37,485 nt of DNA, taken from NCBI GenBank assembly GCA_947624605.1, contig CANQLA010000003.1:1-37485 (forward strand). The letters are read 5' to 3'. Within the stretch, counting starts at the first letter, position 1. Each line of letters begins with the position of its first letter. Source of the stretch: Candidatus Gastranaerophilales bacterium (GTDB lineage Bacteria; Cyanobacteriota; Vampirovibrionia; Gastranaerophilales; Gastranaerophilaceae). This document shows positions 1-29,625 of the stretch, in pieces. A program made the translations under genes and the position numbers. A model generated the notes under the pieces. The model ran no database searches and had not been told where the DNA came from. It was given only the letters and a program-made list of their open reading frames with translations.

Positions 1-120
1 AGAATCTATCCGAATAAGAAACAGAAAAAGCAGATAGCGCAGAGCATCGGCAACGCCAGGTTTGTTTACAACCATTTTCTCGCCCGCCAGGAGGAGAATT
101 ATAAAAACGGCGGCAGATAC
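1..120 (+). pseudogene. TnpB (IS200/IS605 OrfB) N-terminal fragment
   Basis: Reading frame 1 from the first base gives RIYPNKKQKKQIAQSIGNAR followed by FVYNHFLARQEENYKNG, which matches the N-terminal helix-turn-helix segment of TnpB, the RNA-guided nuclease of IS200/IS605 elements. The start codon lies left of the window. After about 40 residues the similarity ends, and the frame runs on through kinase sequence to a stop at 178-180. None of the catalytic RuvC or zinc-finger parts is present. The first 100 bases are about 46% GC, well above the surrounding DNA, which supports a foreign origin. The junction with the kinase lies somewhere in 95-125, where both readings are plausible. It could be an IS remnant or a chimeric assembly join. 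Confidence 0.75.
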
Positions 121-595
121 AGCCAAAGAGCAAGGGAAAATAATTGTTGCGGACGTACAGAAAGATATGAACCGCTATAAAGGTGTTACGGCAATGACTC
201 CAAATCAGCCTGATACGGAGAAATATACAGGATTAGTAATACAAGGAGAAGAAAGATTAAAGCAAGCCGGAGAAAAACTCTTATCCGACTCTGAGTCGGA
301 ATATATGTTAATAACAAGAGGCGGAGACGGAATGGCGATATTTGAAAAAGACGGTAAATACAATCTTATTCCTGTATTCAACAAAACAGACGTATTTGAT
401 GTAACAGGAGCAGGAGATACGGTAGTTGCAACATTCACATTAGGACTTGCAGCAGGTTTAACGGCAAAACATGCGGCTATAATCGGAAATCTTGCTGCAA
501 GTATAGTAATTCGCAGATTTGGATGTGCAACAACAAATATAAAAGAGTTAATCAAGGCAGCAGATAAAATTAATTTTGAGAAATTCAGAGGATAA
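62..595 (+). pseudogene. 5'-truncated PfkB-family sugar kinase, HldE/RfaE heptose-kinase-like
   Basis: This is the C-terminal half of a ribokinase/PfkB-family kinase, most like the D-glycero-beta-D-manno-heptose-7-phosphate kinase domain of HldE/RfaE, which phosphorylates heptose-7-phosphate for LPS core synthesis in the cytoplasm. The PfkB signature DVTGAGDT holds the catalytic base Asp and the anion hole. TPNQPDTEKYTG and the C-terminal ITRGGDG and AASIVIRRFGCAT blocks also match the family. About 160 family-like residues remain of a usual 310-330, and the N-terminal substrate lid and half of the Rossmann core are missing. Homology begins near base 98; sequence before that belongs to the TnpB reading frame. 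The only upstream start in this frame is a TTG at 62 with no convincing ribosome site, so the gene is probably non-functional as it stands. The stop lies one base before the ATG of the next gene, so it formerly led an operon. Confidence 0.75.
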
Positions 596-596
596 T

Positions 597-1190
597 ATGA
601 AATCAGCATTTAAAAATTTAAAAAAAGCAGACTGGATAATAATTTTCGCAGTATTAATAATATTAATTGCACTAATAATACCGGCAGCAGGAATAAAGAA
701 ATACATTTCAAAATCACCGATTTTAGAAGAACGGGATATATACTTTACGGTTTTTTTGCGTGGGGTTACTGTTACAGATATCAAATCACCCTTCCAAATT
801 GGAGAAGACACATTTATAACAATAAGAAATGTTCCATACACAAAATTAAAAATCAAAGATGTTCGATGTGACAGGAGAAAAAAATTATTGGAAACAAGTA
901 TAAAGGGAGATTATAAACTTGTTGACGATGTTACGATGCCATTTATGTATGATTTTGAGATTACAATACAAGACAGAGCCAAAATAACCGATGACGGAGC
1001 TGTTGTTGGAGGAAACAAGATTAAAATAGGCATTCCCGTAGTTTTAGAAGGAAAGAATTATAAACTTAACGGAATTGTGTCCAATGTACAATTCTATGAA
1101 GGAGAAAGCCAATATCAAAATAAAGAAGAAAACCAAGTTAATAGTGAAAATAATCCTTCAGGTAATGAAACGAGTGGTGAAAGCAAATAA
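597..1190 (+). CDS. DUF4330-like membrane-anchored protein
   Basis: This 197-residue protein has one N-terminal transmembrane helix at residues 11-32 (ADWIIIFAVLIILIALIIPA), then a soluble domain, and ends in an Asn/Glu/Ser-rich hydrophilic tail of about 30 residues. The short anchor followed by a beta-rich domain resembles DUF4330, a family common in Cyanobacteria and relatives with no assigned function; I make this match from memory of the family's layout. ATG 597 is preferred over an in-frame upstream TTG at 576, because it follows the kinase stop by one base and gives a clean membrane anchor. It sits in a + strand run with the O-antigen-ligase-like gene 17 bases downstream, so a role at the cell envelope is possible but unproven. 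Confidence 0.6.
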   Translation: MKSAFKNLKKADWIIIFAVLIILIALIIPAAGIKKYISKSPILEERDIYFTVFLRGVTVTDIKSPFQIGEDTFITIRNVPYTKLKIKDVRCDRRKKLLETSIKGDYKLVDDVTMPFMYDFEITIQDRAKITDDGAVVGGNKIKIGIPVVLEGKNYKLNGIVSNVQFYEGESQYQNKEENQVNSENNPSGNETSGESK

Positions 1191-1207: not shown

Positions 1208-2581
1208 ATGATAGTTGAAAGTAGAATACTGAATTATATTAACAAATTTTTGTCCCAAATACAAGATAAGACAGATAAATTCAGAGAAAAATCATATATT
1301 TTATCAAATATAGATAATATTTTATTTATATTTATTTGTTCATCAATAGTAATAAGTATATTTGCAGGCAATAATACCACAGCCGTATTATTGTGTATAG
1401 TTTCATTTTTATACTTTATGACATACATTTTCCAAAAGGGAACAAGAGTAGAATTAAATCGAAGTACAATATTTTTAATGTTATATTTATGTATAGCAGT
1501 TGCAAGCACGATTAATTCAACAATGATAAAAGCGAGCATAACAGGTATATCAAAAACTGTTTTATATTTAATATATTTTTCAGCAGCAGCAGAGTATTTA
1601 AGAAAGCATAAAGAAAAAATCCGTATTATAATAGTATTAATCGGAATATGTGTAAGTTTTGAAGTAGTCGCGGCATTTTTACAAAACAATATACACGTAA
1701 TGAGTGCAGCGACTTGGCAGGATATATCGAGGTTAAACCCCGAATATATTTTAACAAGAGTTTACGGAACATTAAAACCGTTGAATCCCAATCTACTTGG
1801 AGGATATTTCATTGCAGCAGTACCGTTTTTGTGGATAAGTAGTGCATTATTTTGGATAGAGAAAAAATATAAATTGTTTTATACAGGGGCAATATTTTCA
1901 ATAGCATCAATTTCAGGAATTTTCATGACGGGATGCAGAGGGGCATACATAGCATTATTTGTAATGACAGCAGTTACAAGCATTTTTATATACAATATTT
2001 TAAAAACTCATTATCCTAATTCATATACAATAGTAAATAAACACAAGAAAGGAATAATAATATGGCTGATAGGACTCAGTGCATTAATAATGACATCTGT
2101 ACCAAAAATTTCTCACAGAATCTTATCAATTTTTGCAATGAGGAATGACAGTTCGACATCATTCAGAATGAATGTTTATCAATCATCGATACAAATGATA
2201 CAAGATAATATATTATTAGGTATAGGATGCGGAAACAAGGTATTTAGAGAAATATACGGATTGTATATGCGTTCGGGATTTGATGCATTAAGTGCATATT
2301 CAATATATATAGAAACAGCAGTAGAAAGCGGAATAATAGCATTAATATTTTACATACTTTTTATCATATTTTTAATTAAAGACGGTATAGAATCTTATAA
2401 GAGAACGAAAGATATAAAAACAAAAACAATAATAGCATCAGGAATAATAAGTATTATAGGAGTGCTTGTTCATGGTTTTGTAGATACGATATATTACAGA
2501 CCGCAAATACAAATAATTTTTTGGATAGCAGTAGCAATTGTAACAATATACACAAATGAACAAGGGAAAATAAACGCATAA
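1208..2581 (+). CDS. O-antigen ligase/polymerase family (Wzy_C, IctB-like) membrane protein
   Basis: This 457-residue integral membrane protein has about 11 hydrophobic helices. The mid-protein block NPNLLGGYFIAAVPF, the large periplasmic loop with SFRMNVYQSSIQMIQDNILL, and GIGCGNKVF are typical of the Wzy_C/O-antigen ligase superfamily. The NPNLLGGY block is especially like IctB-type members of Cyanobacteria. Members join or polymerise lipid-linked sugars on the periplasmic face of the inner membrane, but substrates cannot be read from sequence. Codon choice is extremely A-ending (Ile is mostly ATA), unlike + strand genes after 11 kb. It probably shares a transcript with the DUF4330 gene, 17 bases upstream. 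Confidence 0.75.
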   Translation: MIVESRILNYINKFLSQIQDKTDKFREKSYILSNIDNILFIFICSSIVISIFAGNNTTAVLLCIVSFLYFMTYIFQKGTRVELNRSTIFLMLYLCIAVASTINSTMIKASITGISKTVLYLIYFSAAAEYLRKHKEKIRIIIVLIGICVSFEVVAAFLQNNIHVMSAATWQDISRLNPEYILTRVYGTLKPLNPNLLGGYFIAAVPFLWISSALFWIEKKYKLFYTGAIFSIASISGIFMTGCRGAYIALFVMTAVTSIFIYNILKTHYPNSYTIVNKHKKGIIIWLIGLSALIMTSVPKISHRILSIFAMRNDSSTSFRMNVYQSSIQMIQDNILLGIGCGNKVFREIYGLYMRSGFDALSAYSIYIETAVESGIIALIFYILFIIFLIKDGIESYKRTKDIKTKTIIASGIISIIGVLVHGFVDTIYYRPQIQIIFWIAVAIVTIYTNEQGKINA

Positions 2582-3122
2582 AAATGGTAAAACTTGAGAA
2601 AATACAAGGATATTAAGCAAAAGAAATATTGAAGGAATAGTTTTTAAAAAAAGAGAAGAATAGAAAATGTACTAAAAGAGCGGAAAACCGGCAGTAATAA
2701 AAGTGCATGTATATATAAGAGCTGGTGACAAAGCTGGAGAGGTAAATATAACAGGGATAATAAAAACGGAAAAATTAGATTTAGTAGAGAAAGCAAGAGA
2801 TTTTAGTGACGGACCAAAAAGCAGAAGCAGTATATTATTTATAGAAAGGGGAGTAGTGCAATTTGCCTGTATAGGAATAGGAAGATAGCTTATAAATAAG
2901 TATTAAAGGAATTTGAAGCAGATAAAGAAGCAGAAGTAATTTTATTGCAGTATTAATTGTGTCGGAAGAAAGGAGAAAGAGACATTGGTGAGAATAGTTT
3001 AAAGAGGGAACTTAACAGTCCAAAGTAAATATGAAGCTTTTGAAGAAGTGCGGGGAAAATATGTAAAAATTCGTGTGAACTTGTTATAATAATAGAAAAA
3101 ATAATAAAAGGAAGCATGTAAA
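2582..3122 (+). other. 541-base gap with decayed-looking coding DNA, possible nfnA remnant
   Basis: There is no credible intact gene here. The + strand is strongly purine-rich, like the neighbouring coding strands (17 G against 5 C in 2701-2760), and stretches of plausible protein are broken by stops. One open stretch (2676-2888) contains KSGKPAVIKVHVYIR, GDKAGEVNIT and later GVVQFACI. These segments recall, in the same order, the FAD-domain entry and the C-terminal Cys segment of NfnA/SudB, the usual partner encoded directly upstream of nfnB. The central NAD-binding part would be deleted. A second fragment lies at 3007-3090. The resemblance is weak and could be chance. Confidence 0.3.
3082..3090 (+). 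promoter_or_regulatory. Extended -10 promoter candidate for gltA/nfnB
   Basis: The sequence TGTTATAAT is a perfect TATAAT box with an upstream TGn extension. It lies 32 bases before the nfnB ATG, and an AGGAAG ribosome site falls in between. No good -35 box is seen, as expected for an extended -10 promoter. It would let nfnB be expressed apart from the decayed region upstream. Confidence 0.5.
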
Positions 3123-4481
3123 ATGATAGAAAAACCAAAAAGACAAAGACAAGCAGAGCAGGATCCAATGATAAGAAGGCATAATTTTGATGCAGTGGAA
3201 AGTAATTTTACAGAAGAACAAGTGAAACAGGAAGTACAAAGATGTTTAAAGTGCAAAAACGCAAAATGCATAACCGGATGTCCCGTAAATATAAATATTC
3301 CGGAGTTTATAGCAGCATTAAAAGAAGATAACATAGAAAAAGCAGGAGATATAATCAGGGAGACAAGTTTTTTACCGTCTGTATGCGGACGTGTATGTCC
3401 GCAGGAGCGGCAATGTGAAGGCAAATGCATATTGGGGATAAAAGGAGAGCCGATTGCAATCGGAGCATTAGAAAGATATGTCGGAGATAATACGGATGCA
3501 AAATCTACAGTTTCGGTAGACACGGGGAAAAAAGTTGCAATAATAGGTTCAGGATGTGCAGGGATTACGGCAGCTGCAGATTTAAGAAAAGCAGGGCACA
3601 GAGTTGTAGTATTTGAAGCACTTCATAAACTTGGAGGTGTATTAAGGTATGGAATTCCACCATTTAGACTTCCGAGGAATTTTTTAGACAGAGAAATAAA
3701 TTCTTTAAAGAAAATAGGAGTTGAATTTGTAACTAATGTAGTAGTAGGCAAATCTATTACGATAAAGCAATTAAAGGAAGATGGTTACGATGCGGTATTT
3801 ATATGTTCCGGAGCAGGACTTCCAAAAATGTTAAATATACCGGGAGAAAATCTCAATGGAGTATATTCTGCAAATGAATTTTTAACAAGAGTCAACTTAA
3901 TGCATGCAAATCGAGGAGATGCACCGACGCCTTTAAAAACCGGAGAAAAGGCAATTATTGTAGGTGGCGGTAATGTAGCCATGGATGGATTTAAAAGTGT
4001 AAAAATAGTATACAGAAGAACGGAAGCTGAGCTGCCGGCAAGATTAGAAGAAATAAGACATGCAAAAGAAGAAGGAATTATATTTCAATTTTTACACAAT
4101 CCTGTAGAATTAACAGGAGAAAACGGTTTTGTAAAAAAAACGAAACTTGAAATTATGGAGCTTGGAGAGCCTGACGAATCCGGCAGAAGAAGTCCTGTTC
4201 CGACAGGAAGGTATGTTTATGAAGATGTTGATACATTTATTGTTGCATTAGGTACAGGACCGAATCCAATTATACAATCATCAGTAGAATCTGACGGATT
4301 AAATTTGCAAACTGATAAAAAAGGATATATTGTAATTGACGCAGAAACAGGAAAAACAACAATAGACGGTGTATATGCCGGAGGTGATGTTGCTCCGGTA
4401 GGAACATCTAATGCCATCAATGCGATGGGAGCCGGAAAACGTGCTGCTGCTGCAATTAATTCTTACTTAGCCAATAAATAA
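3123..4481 (+). CDS. gltA: NADPH-dependent glutamate synthase small-subunit-like / NfnB flavoprotein, with internal deletion
   Basis: The family comprises FAD/Fe-S oxidoreductases: glutamate synthase small subunit, SudA, and the NfnB subunit of the electron-bifurcating ferredoxin:NADP transhydrogenase. The 452 residues begin with the two-cluster ferredoxin-like domain (RCLKCKNAKCITGCPV, then SVCGRVCPQERQCEGKC). The FAD-binding GSGCAGITAA (about residue 143) and GGVLRYGIPPFRLP follow, then the NADP-binding GGGNVAMD (281-288) and the C-terminal FAD motif VYAGGDV. Between Asp288 and IVYRR only six residues occur where relatives have about fourteen. The helix after the glycine loop is therefore largely gone, and NADPH binding is doubtful. 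The ORF stays open. ATG 3123 follows AGGAAG. The usual partner gene nfnA is not intact upstream. Confidence 0.85.
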   Translation: MIEKPKRQRQAEQDPMIRRHNFDAVESNFTEEQVKQEVQRCLKCKNAKCITGCPVNINIPEFIAALKEDNIEKAGDIIRETSFLPSVCGRVCPQERQCEGKCILGIKGEPIAIGALERYVGDNTDAKSTVSVDTGKKVAIIGSGCAGITAAADLRKAGHRVVVFEALHKLGGVLRYGIPPFRLPRNFLDREINSLKKIGVEFVTNVVVGKSITIKQLKEDGYDAVFICSGAGLPKMLNIPGENLNGVYSANEFLTRVNLMHANRGDAPTPLKTGEKAIIVGGGNVAMDGFKSVKIVYRRTEAELPARLEEIRHAKEEGIIFQFLHNPVELTGENGFVKKTKLEIMELGEPDESGRRSPVPTGRYVYEDVDTFIVALGTGPNPIIQSSVESDGLNLQTDKKGYIVIDAETGKTTIDGVYAGGDVAPVGTSNAINAMGAGKRAAAAINSYLANK

Positions 4482-13885: not shown

Positions 13886-15655
13886 ATGGGAAATTTACTG
13901 GAAAAACTTGGATTAAGCTCAGTATTGACGGTTGGTATTTCAGTTTCGGCGTCAAATTTTATTGAAATGATTTGCGTAGATAAAAATCAAAAAGTCATTA
14001 CTAAATATGCTTGTAAAGAATTAAAGTATAATATAGCTATTAGAGAAATTATCAGTTATGAAGACTTTTCTATTACGGTTTTAGAATTATTTAAAGAATT
14101 AAAAATTAATCCTAAAAATTGTAATGTTGTTTTAAATCTTCCAAATGTTCATTTCGGTTTGACAAATATGCCTCAAGTTCTTCCGGAAGACCAAATTTCA
14201 ACAGCTATCGCTTCTGAAGTTGAAGAGTTATATCTTTTCAAAAGACATGAACCGGTAGTAAGCTGGAATATGGTCGGTGAAGATGATGAAGCCAAAAAAA
14301 AATATTTCGTCTTTGGTGCAATTCAGGAAAATACCATAAATAATATAAAAAGTGTTTTTGCTGAAATGGGGGCTAATCTTGTAGCTATAGAAACTTCTAA
14401 CAGCTCTTTATTAAAAGGTCTTTTATATAGTGGATTGTTTGATGAAGAATTTCAAGATGGTGAAGCTACCAATATACTTTTAATTTCTTCTAATTCTTAT
14501 TCTATATTTTGTATGCAAGGTACGACTATTGTAGACTATTTTGATGAACCGATTGCTATTAAATCTTTTACAAATGATGAGGTTTATATTGCAATTTCTT
14601 CCGCAGTCAGTACTTCTTTAGAAAATTATCCCTCTAAAAATTTATTAGTAATCAGTGAAACCAATGAAGTCAGTGCTGAAATTCTTTGCCATAAAATAAA
14701 TGTTTCCGGTAATTTGAAGTTTTTAGACAGAAATATTTATACTGACAAATCATTTATCGATACTTCCGAAGATGTGATTTCCAAATATCTTCCTTTGATA
14801 TCACTTGAAGCAGTTGGTGCTGCAGTTTATTTTTTTGATAATTTCCCTGTTAAATTTAATTTTTTGCAGGAAGGTGAAATAACTACTTCCGAAAAAAGTG
14901 TTATTAATATTTTCGGTACAGAATATGAACTTAACAGAAAAGCAATTTTGAATATATCTCTAATTGTCGGTATTGTCGTTCTTATAATTTTCTTATTTAT
15001 AGGATTTTTAGTCTCTTTATATAATAAGAAAATAGTTAAAGATACCGAAATTATGTCTGAAGAATTTATTCAAATTACTTCGCAATTGAAAGCAACTGAA
15101 ACCGGCGGCAGTGATGTGAATTCTATATATTCCGTTCAATCTAAAATTAGTGAAGAAAACACAAAGGGAGTTTCTCTGTTTTATGGTTTGGGTTCTGAAA
15201 TTCCTTCAAATTTATATTTAACTAATTTTTACAGTAATTCTGATGGTGAAGTTAAAATTTCAGGAAACTCTACATCAAGTGATTCAATTTATGCATATGT
15301 AAAAGGTTTGAAAACAAAATATCCGGAGATAAAAATTTCTAAATTGCAGATGGAAATGGGAGATGAAAGCGGTTCTTCCTTCTTGTATTCATTTTTGATA
15401 GAAAGTGAGGTTTCAGCCCAAAAAGAAGCACAAGCAGAAGCTGCTGAAAAATCGCAGGCTGATAATCAACAAAATAGTCAACAACCTAAAGCTCTGTTTC
15501 CTTTCTTCGGCTCTTCCGCTCCGCAAACGCCTCCGGCTGCTCCTTCTGCACCACAAACTCCTCCGGCAGCTCCCGCTGCAGGTGGTGCTGATTCTACTGC
15601 TGCTCCTCAAGCAGCAAATGCTCCGGGAGGACTTCCGGCTCCGGTTGCTCCTTAG
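13886..15655 (+). CDS. pilM: PilM-PilN-type fusion protein of type IV pilus assembly
   Basis: The 589 residues combine two pilus-alignment proteins. Residues 1-345 look like the actin-like cytoplasmic PilM (LTVGISVSASNFIEM, LNLPNVHFGLTNMP, the EVEELYLF helix). A single transmembrane helix spans about 354-378, and a PilN-like periplasmic domain covers 380-515 (SEIPSNLYLTNFY, DGEVKISGNSTSSDSIYAYV). A Pro/Ala-rich tail of about 65 residues, with two copies of SAPQTPPAAP, ends the protein. In most bacteria PilM and PilN are separate and contact each other across the membrane, with PilM binding the PilN N-terminal peptide. PilO follows after 31 bases. The assembly links the cytoplasmic motors to the outer-membrane secretin. 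The family match is by architecture and is less certain in sequence. Confidence 0.7.
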   Translation: MGNLLEKLGLSSVLTVGISVSASNFIEMICVDKNQKVITKYACKELKYNIAIREIISYEDFSITVLELFKELKINPKNCNVVLNLPNVHFGLTNMPQVLPEDQISTAIASEVEELYLFKRHEPVVSWNMVGEDDEAKKKYFVFGAIQENTINNIKSVFAEMGANLVAIETSNSSLLKGLLYSGLFDEEFQDGEATNILLISSNSYSIFCMQGTTIVDYFDEPIAIKSFTNDEVYIAISSAVSTSLENYPSKNLLVISETNEVSAEILCHKINVSGNLKFLDRNIYTDKSFIDTSEDVISKYLPLISLEAVGAAVYFFDNFPVKFNFLQEGEITTSEKSVINIFGTEYELNRKAILNISLIVGIVVLIIFLFIGFLVSLYNKKIVKDTEIMSEEFIQITSQLKATETGGSDVNSIYSVQSKISEENTKGVSLFYGLGSEIPSNLYLTNFYSNSDGEVKISGNSTSSDSIYAYVKGLKTKYPEIKISKLQMEMGDESGSSFLYSFLIESEVSAQKEAQAEAAEKSQADNQQNSQQPKALFPFFGSSAPQTPPAAPSAPQTPPAAPAAGGADSTAAPQAANAPGGLPAPVAP

Positions 15656-28626: not shown

Positions 28627-29625
28627 TTATTTTTGAGCATTTTCAACAGCAACAGCAACAGCAACAGTTGCACCAACCATAGGATTGTTACCCATACCTA
28701 TTACACCCATCATCTCTACGTGTGCAGGAACAGAAGATGAACCTGCAAATTGAGCATCACCATGCATTCTGCCCATAGTGTCTGTCATACCGTATGAAGC
28801 AGGACCTGCTGCAACGTTATCCGGATGAAGAGTTCTTCCTGTTCCTCCTCCTGATGCTACTGAGAAGTATTTCCTTCCGTTTTCAAAACACCATTTTTTG
28901 TATGTTCCTGCAACAGGATGTTGAAAACGTGTCGGGTTAGTTGAATTTCCGGTGATGGAAACATCTACACCTTCCTTTATCATAATTGCAACACCTTCAG
29001 AAACATCATCAGCTCCGTAACATTTTACTTTTGCTCTTTCCCCGTTTGAAAATGCCGTTTCTTTGATAACTTTTAATTCTCCTGTTTTATAATTATATTC
29101 AGTTTCAACAGACGTAAATCCATTGATTCTTGAAATTATATATGCGGCATCTTTTCCAAGTCCATTTAAAATAACTCTTAATGGTTCTTTTCTTACTTTG
29201 TTTGCATTTCTCGCAATTCCTATTGCTCCTTCAGCTGCTGCAAACGATTCATGACCTGCTAAAAAACAAAAACATTTTGTTTCTTCCCTTAATAACATTG
29301 CTCCTAAATTCCCGTGACCAAGACCTACTTTTCTTGTATCACCTACGGAACCGGGTACCGCAAAAGCTTGTAAACCTATTCCTATAGCTTCTGCTGCTTC
29401 TGCTGCAGTTTTTATGCCTTTTTTCAATGCTATTGCACAACCTAATGTGTATGCCCAGACAGCATTTTCAAATGCTATGGGCTGAATGCCTTTAACGATT
29501 TCTTCTACGTTAATTCCTTTTTCTTCACATATGGATTTCGCTTCCTCTAATGAAGCCATTCCATATTCTTTAAGTGTTTCTTTTATTGTTGACTCGCGTC
29601 TGTCTTTTCCTTCAAATTCTACCAT
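28627..29625 (-). CDS. GGGtGRT protein
   Basis: The 332 residues match the uncharacterised GGGtGRT family, named for its conserved stretch, here VASGGGTGRTLHPDN (about residue 258). Other conserved-looking blocks are VGLGHGNLGAMLL, KCFCFLAGHESFAAAEGAIG and MIKEGVDVSITGNSTNPTRF. The function is not established. It follows the Fe-S scaffold-like gene after 12 bases, a pairing known in other anaerobes. That suggests joint action on an Fe-S or one-carbon target, but this is inference. ATG 29625 follows GAGGAC. The C-terminal VAVAVAVENAQK is encoded by a short CAG/CAA-like run. Confidence 0.85.
   Translation of the reverse strand: MVEFEGKDRRESTIKETLKEYGMASLEEAKSICEEKGINVEEIVKGIQPIAFENAVWAYTLGCAIALKKGIKTAAEAAEAIGIGLQAFAVPGSVGDTRKVGLGHGNLGAMLLREETKCFCFLAGHESFAAAEGAIGIARNANKVRKEPLRVILNGLGKDAAYIISRINGFTSVETEYNYKTGELKVIKETAFSNGERAKVKCYGADDVSEGVAIMIKEGVDVSITGNSTNPTRFQHPVAGTYKKWCFENGRKYFSVASGGGTGRTLHPDNVAAGPASYGMTDTMGRMHGDAQFAGSSSVPAHVEMMGVIGMGNNPMVGATVAVAVAVENAQK

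Follow-up and report, generated by a model that had tools for sequence, protein, structure and literature searches.

A tnpB fragment joined to half of a heptose kinase gene at the end of a Gastranaerophilales contig is very probably an assembly error

Background

The TnpB proteins of IS200/IS605 elements (PF12323; NF038281) carry an N-terminal helix-turn-helix, and it is this domain that they share with the first bases of the contig described here. They differ from it in extent: the contig tip encodes only about 40 residues, lacks the catalytic part, and loses its homology to TnpB at a joint with a second gene. That gene belongs with the D-glycero-beta-D-manno-heptose-7-phosphate kinases (TIGR02198), of which only the C-terminal half of the kinase domain is present and the 5′ half is missing, while the genes that follow it are, by eye, similar to those at the kinase locus of related genomes. 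The third point of comparison is a technical one. Misassembly giving rise to chimeric contigs is described as a known, relatively rare source of error in metagenome-assembled genomes (PMC8201837). As in the chimeric contigs that this source describes, pieces of different origin would here lie in one contig, but the foreign piece is a short end of about 100 bases, which a gene-based check would probably miss.

The window, by which we mean the whole stretch of DNA analysed, is the entire contig C3 (37,485 bases) of a Gastranaerophilales genome (G000) assembled to 2,020,541 bases in 217 contigs, with an estimated completeness of 85.3% and contamination of 2.8%. Because the window is a complete contig, its base 1 is an assembly end. 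Judged by the kinase, the nearest relatives are four genomes of the same genus, with a protein identity of 79–80%. Searches of the window with Rfam models and for tRNAs gave no match.

A TnpB fragment of foreign composition

Bases 1–114 of the plus strand, read in frame 1, encode a fragment of the N-terminal helix-turn-helix of TnpB with foreign codon usage. The translation matches the PF12323 profile (HTH_OrfB_IS605) over positions 9–46 of 47 with an E value of 5.8e-16 and the NCBIfam profile IS200_TnpB with an E value of 5.1e-12, so that both profiles bear out the original prediction, which had read such a helix-turn-helix in frame 1 from base 1. The frame is already open at the first base and runs off the contig start, and the foreign piece thus reaches the contig end; any left end of an IS200/IS605 element would fall outside the contig. 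At the other side, the PF12323 homology stops at residue 38, corresponding to base 114, and the RuvC-like catalytic part of the protein is absent.

The tip also stands apart in composition. The first 100 bases measure 46% GC, the same value as predicted, and bases 1–96 are 47.9% GC versus 30.4% for the window overall. Among 388 nonoverlapping 96-base windows, 5 are as GC-rich as the tip, and GC content by itself is moderately telling for a foreign tip, not decisive. GC3 is the stronger measure. It reaches 22 of 32 codons in bases 1–96, a value attained by none of 8,339 overlapping 32-codon stretches in 24 other open reading frames (ORFs) of the window, nor, when 5 more ORFs are added to make 29, by any of 9,416 stretches (maximum 16). 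The kinase half, counted separately, stays below it as well (0 of 135 stretches; maximum 13). These ORFs were taken from 32 of at least 150 amino acids, with 2 that lie antisense to longer ORFs (1234–1689 and 2999–3523) excluded.

A profile search of the genome itself (E ≤ 0.01) returned a single PF12323 match, that of the tip, with no second match to indicate further IS200/IS605 copies in this 85%-complete assembly, and across 286 genomes drawn from the order (E ≤ 1e-4) the only genome matched was G000 itself. Control genomes gave a match in 2 of 14 cases in the order-wide search and in 3 of 14 in the own-genome search. PF07282 found 2 matches in the genome (E = 0.024 and 0.035), neither of which reaches the cut-off of the family. 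At the DNA level, bases 1–120 match 1 of 59 related genomes, again G000 itself. Composition and distribution together suggest that the tip and the remainder of the contig have different origins and that the tip comes, most likely, from another bacterium.

The search for a donor of this piece found no DNA match in plasmids or phages, and none in the 59 related genomes apart from G000 itself. Protein searches gave identities of 50–62.5%, both among the 20 matches listed from phages (126 records) and among the 15 listed from plasmids (136 records). When back-translated tnpB patterns were run against the viral_contigs collection, 4 of 5 had no match and the fifth led to two loci, L120 and L121. 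These were rejected as donors, their TnpBs being only moderately similar to the tip and continuing differently beyond the position of the joint.

The kinase gene and its missing 5′ half

The C-terminal half of a heptose-7-phosphate kinase gene of the PfkB family occupies bases 98–595 (plus strand), within an ORF that spans bases 62–595. It matches TIGR02198 over profile positions 159–313 of 315 (E = 3.3e-43) and the PfkB profile PF00294 from position 143 onward, and a complete PfkB-fold kinase domain is absent from the window. The PF00294 and TIGR02198 matches start at bases 86 and 92, respectively, slightly ahead of the DNA identity to related kinases. The half gene is open without an internal stop, and all 164 residues align to the four same-genus orthologues at 79–80% identity. 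All 39 genomes searched, the contig's own among them, have a match to this part of the protein.

The original prediction had called the gene HldE-like. The kinase domain fits this description; the full name does not, since its homologues in the same genus are open frames 342–388 amino acids long and the one that was scanned has PfkB and the related Phos_pyr_kin as its only domain matches. In codon usage, ATA accounts for 8 of the 14 isoleucines of the kinase stretch (bases 101–592), the corresponding figures for the same stretch being 0 of 11 in G001, 4 of 15 in G002, 2 of 12 in G003, and 2 of 14 in G004.

It had further been proposed to look for the 5′ half of the kinase elsewhere in the genome. 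With the N-terminal half (180 residues) of the kinase of locus L011 as query, G000 gave no match at E ≤ 10, while each of 5 relatives searched alongside it did, making it the one miss among 6 genomes. A PfkB-family part at the end of another contig, C120, was considered as the missing half and rejected: its profile range, positions 3–239, overlaps the range 143–298 found in the window, it reads by eye like a fructokinase unlike the heptose kinases of the genus, and the N-terminal query has no match there.

The joint

The TnpB and kinase homologies overlap by about 15 bases, so that bases 98–114 (plus strand) fit both reading frames, the PF12323 match ending at base 114 where the identity to kinases has already risen. 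In register with the four same-genus kinases, identity is 3–8 of 20 bases per bin up to base 100 and jumps to 11–14 of 20 in the bin 101–120, which places the beginning of the kinase at about base 98–101, inside the interval of 95–125 that had been predicted for the joint with the kinase interior. One relative, G004, shares an identical run of 13 bases (99–111) with the contig; the run shared with G002 covers bases 101–108, and none of 5 bases or more is shared there with G001 or G003. The joint interrupts the coding region of TnpB and does not coincide with an end of the element. An in-frame fusion of TnpB and kinase can be ruled out, because the TnpB piece lies in frame 1 and the kinase in frame 2, and frame 1 meets a stop codon at 178–180; no fusion protein is encoded.

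Gene order and a gap between two contigs

Downstream of the kinase, the contig continues with a conserved cluster. The next gene (597–1190, plus strand) encodes a DUF4330 protein (PF14221, E = 2.2e-24), and the one after it (1208–2581, plus strand) an O-antigen ligase-like protein (Wzy_C; PF04932, E = 5.9e-14). Similar genes are found, by eye, in L027–L030, where the former likewise follows the kinase. Upstream, the kinase of the relatives L028, L029, and L030 is preceded by, in order, a minus-strand gene for a membrane protein, which looks by eye like a glycosyltransferase, a glycosyltransferase gene (GT2), a gene for an outer-membrane efflux protein, and, next to the kinase, an unannotated minus-strand gene.

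Part of this upstream region is found on a second contig of the genome, C176 (3,913 bases). It carries the first 71 residues of the GT2, ending at base 3909, preceded by a minus-strand neighbor similar to that of the relatives, and it can be aligned to the GT2 of the three relatives until within its last few bases. The intervening genes are not found in close form: for the efflux gene, G000 offers nothing closer than a 22%-identical match on contig C6, compared with close homologs in G003 (100%) and G004 (58%), and the unannotated gene has no match in G000 in a search run without a control genome. In L028, L029, and L030, the distance from the point at which C176 breaks to the joint is about 3,554, 3,548, and 3,540 bases, respectively. 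Gene order therefore indicates that C176 and C3 end at opposite edges of a roughly 3.5-kb hole. The lack of the kinase 5′ half would be weak evidence alone, the genome being incomplete (85%), and it becomes telling because C176 breaks at the syntenic place.

Origin of the joint

We consider the tip to be a misjoined end of a metagenome contig, an ordinary assembly error and not a biological gene fusion, with a probability of roughly 0.9. Several findings favor this reading: the tip lies at a contig end and is foreign in codon usage, none of the 285 other genomes sampled from the order has a PF12323 match, the kinase lacks its 5′ half, and C176 shows a matching break. Assembly would have failed over about 3.5 kb, from within the GT2 through the efflux and unannotated genes to halfway through the kinase. 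Where the sequence resumes in the kinase, a chimeric read or the assembler itself may have crossed a short sequence common to the kinase and a foreign tnpB, adding some 100 bases of tnpB from another, more GC-rich bacterium to the contig end. At about 15 bases, the overlap at the joint is shorter than the k-mers usual in short-read assemblers, so the join may have required a merging step or a read that was itself chimeric. We infer both that the joint lacks read support and the step that made it.

A true rearrangement would leave an identical consensus sequence. All or part of an IS605-type element from a distant bacterium may have recombined by microhomology within the kinase with deletion of up to 3.5 kb, the contig breaking here because the element is present in several copies. 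The short overlap is what microhomology-mediated joining would leave, contig ends often lie in mobile elements, a multicopy insertion sequence would likewise break the assembly at this spot, and the foreign composition is compatible with recent acquisition. We nevertheless regard this as unlikely. PF12323 occurs nowhere else in the genome and in none of the other 285, and PF07282 yields only the 2 subthreshold matches; the joint falls inside tnpB and away from any end of the element; the event would destroy a kinase gene whose C-terminal half has a match in every one of the 39 genomes; and C176, on the far side of the hole, has no such foreign tip and follows the GT2 of the relatives almost to its end. 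More specific, and a little more improbable still, is the proposal that this strain recently gained an element with a tnpB gene from a gut bacterium of higher GC content and then lost the first half of the kinase and its neighbors through a microhomology event in tnpB. If that were true, the strain would no longer be able to make heptose-containing lipopolysaccharide by this route. The possibility that a truncated tnpB from an old insertion is eroding within a kinase pseudogene seems hardly credible. In its favor, the only upstream start codon in the kinase frame is a TTG at base 62, within the TnpB piece, but the frame of the tip is still open and its foreign codon usage undiluted, and the kinase half, open and 79–80% identical to its orthologues, looks no more eroded than the tip. 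Of the two options in the original prediction, the chimeric assembly end is accordingly the one that agrees with the data, whereas the eroded IS605 insertion sits poorly with the single PF12323 match and with a joint inside the TnpB coding region.

The biological importance of the tip is slight. Its relevance lies in the caution that a very short foreign contig tip can place a transposase annotation in a lineage whose sampled genomes otherwise gave none and can make a conserved gene appear disrupted.

Other features of the contig

Elsewhere in the window, an open frame of 589 amino acids at 13886–15655 has no Pfam match at an E value of 1e-5. The protein encoded at 28630–29625 matches PF14057 (GGGtGRT) over positions 1–327 of 327 with an E value of 9.4e-194, the family name giving no function.

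The O-antigen ligase gene is separated from a gene for a pyridine-nucleotide oxidoreductase (PF14691, PF07992) by about 540 bases that contain no long gene (2582–3122). This region is 69.5% purine, a share reached by 95 of 36,945 windows of equal length, all of which start at 2521–2652. The ligase and oxidoreductase genes are close together in L027, L029, and L030. In other Gastranaerophilales, the ligase is followed by a gene that we take, by eye, to encode a succinyl-CoA synthetase beta-like protein. The region looks like a decayed relic of this gene: tblastn finds broken matching pieces (E = 0.01–0.05), and a stretch of 58 bases is 84% identical to L043 (E = 2e-10).
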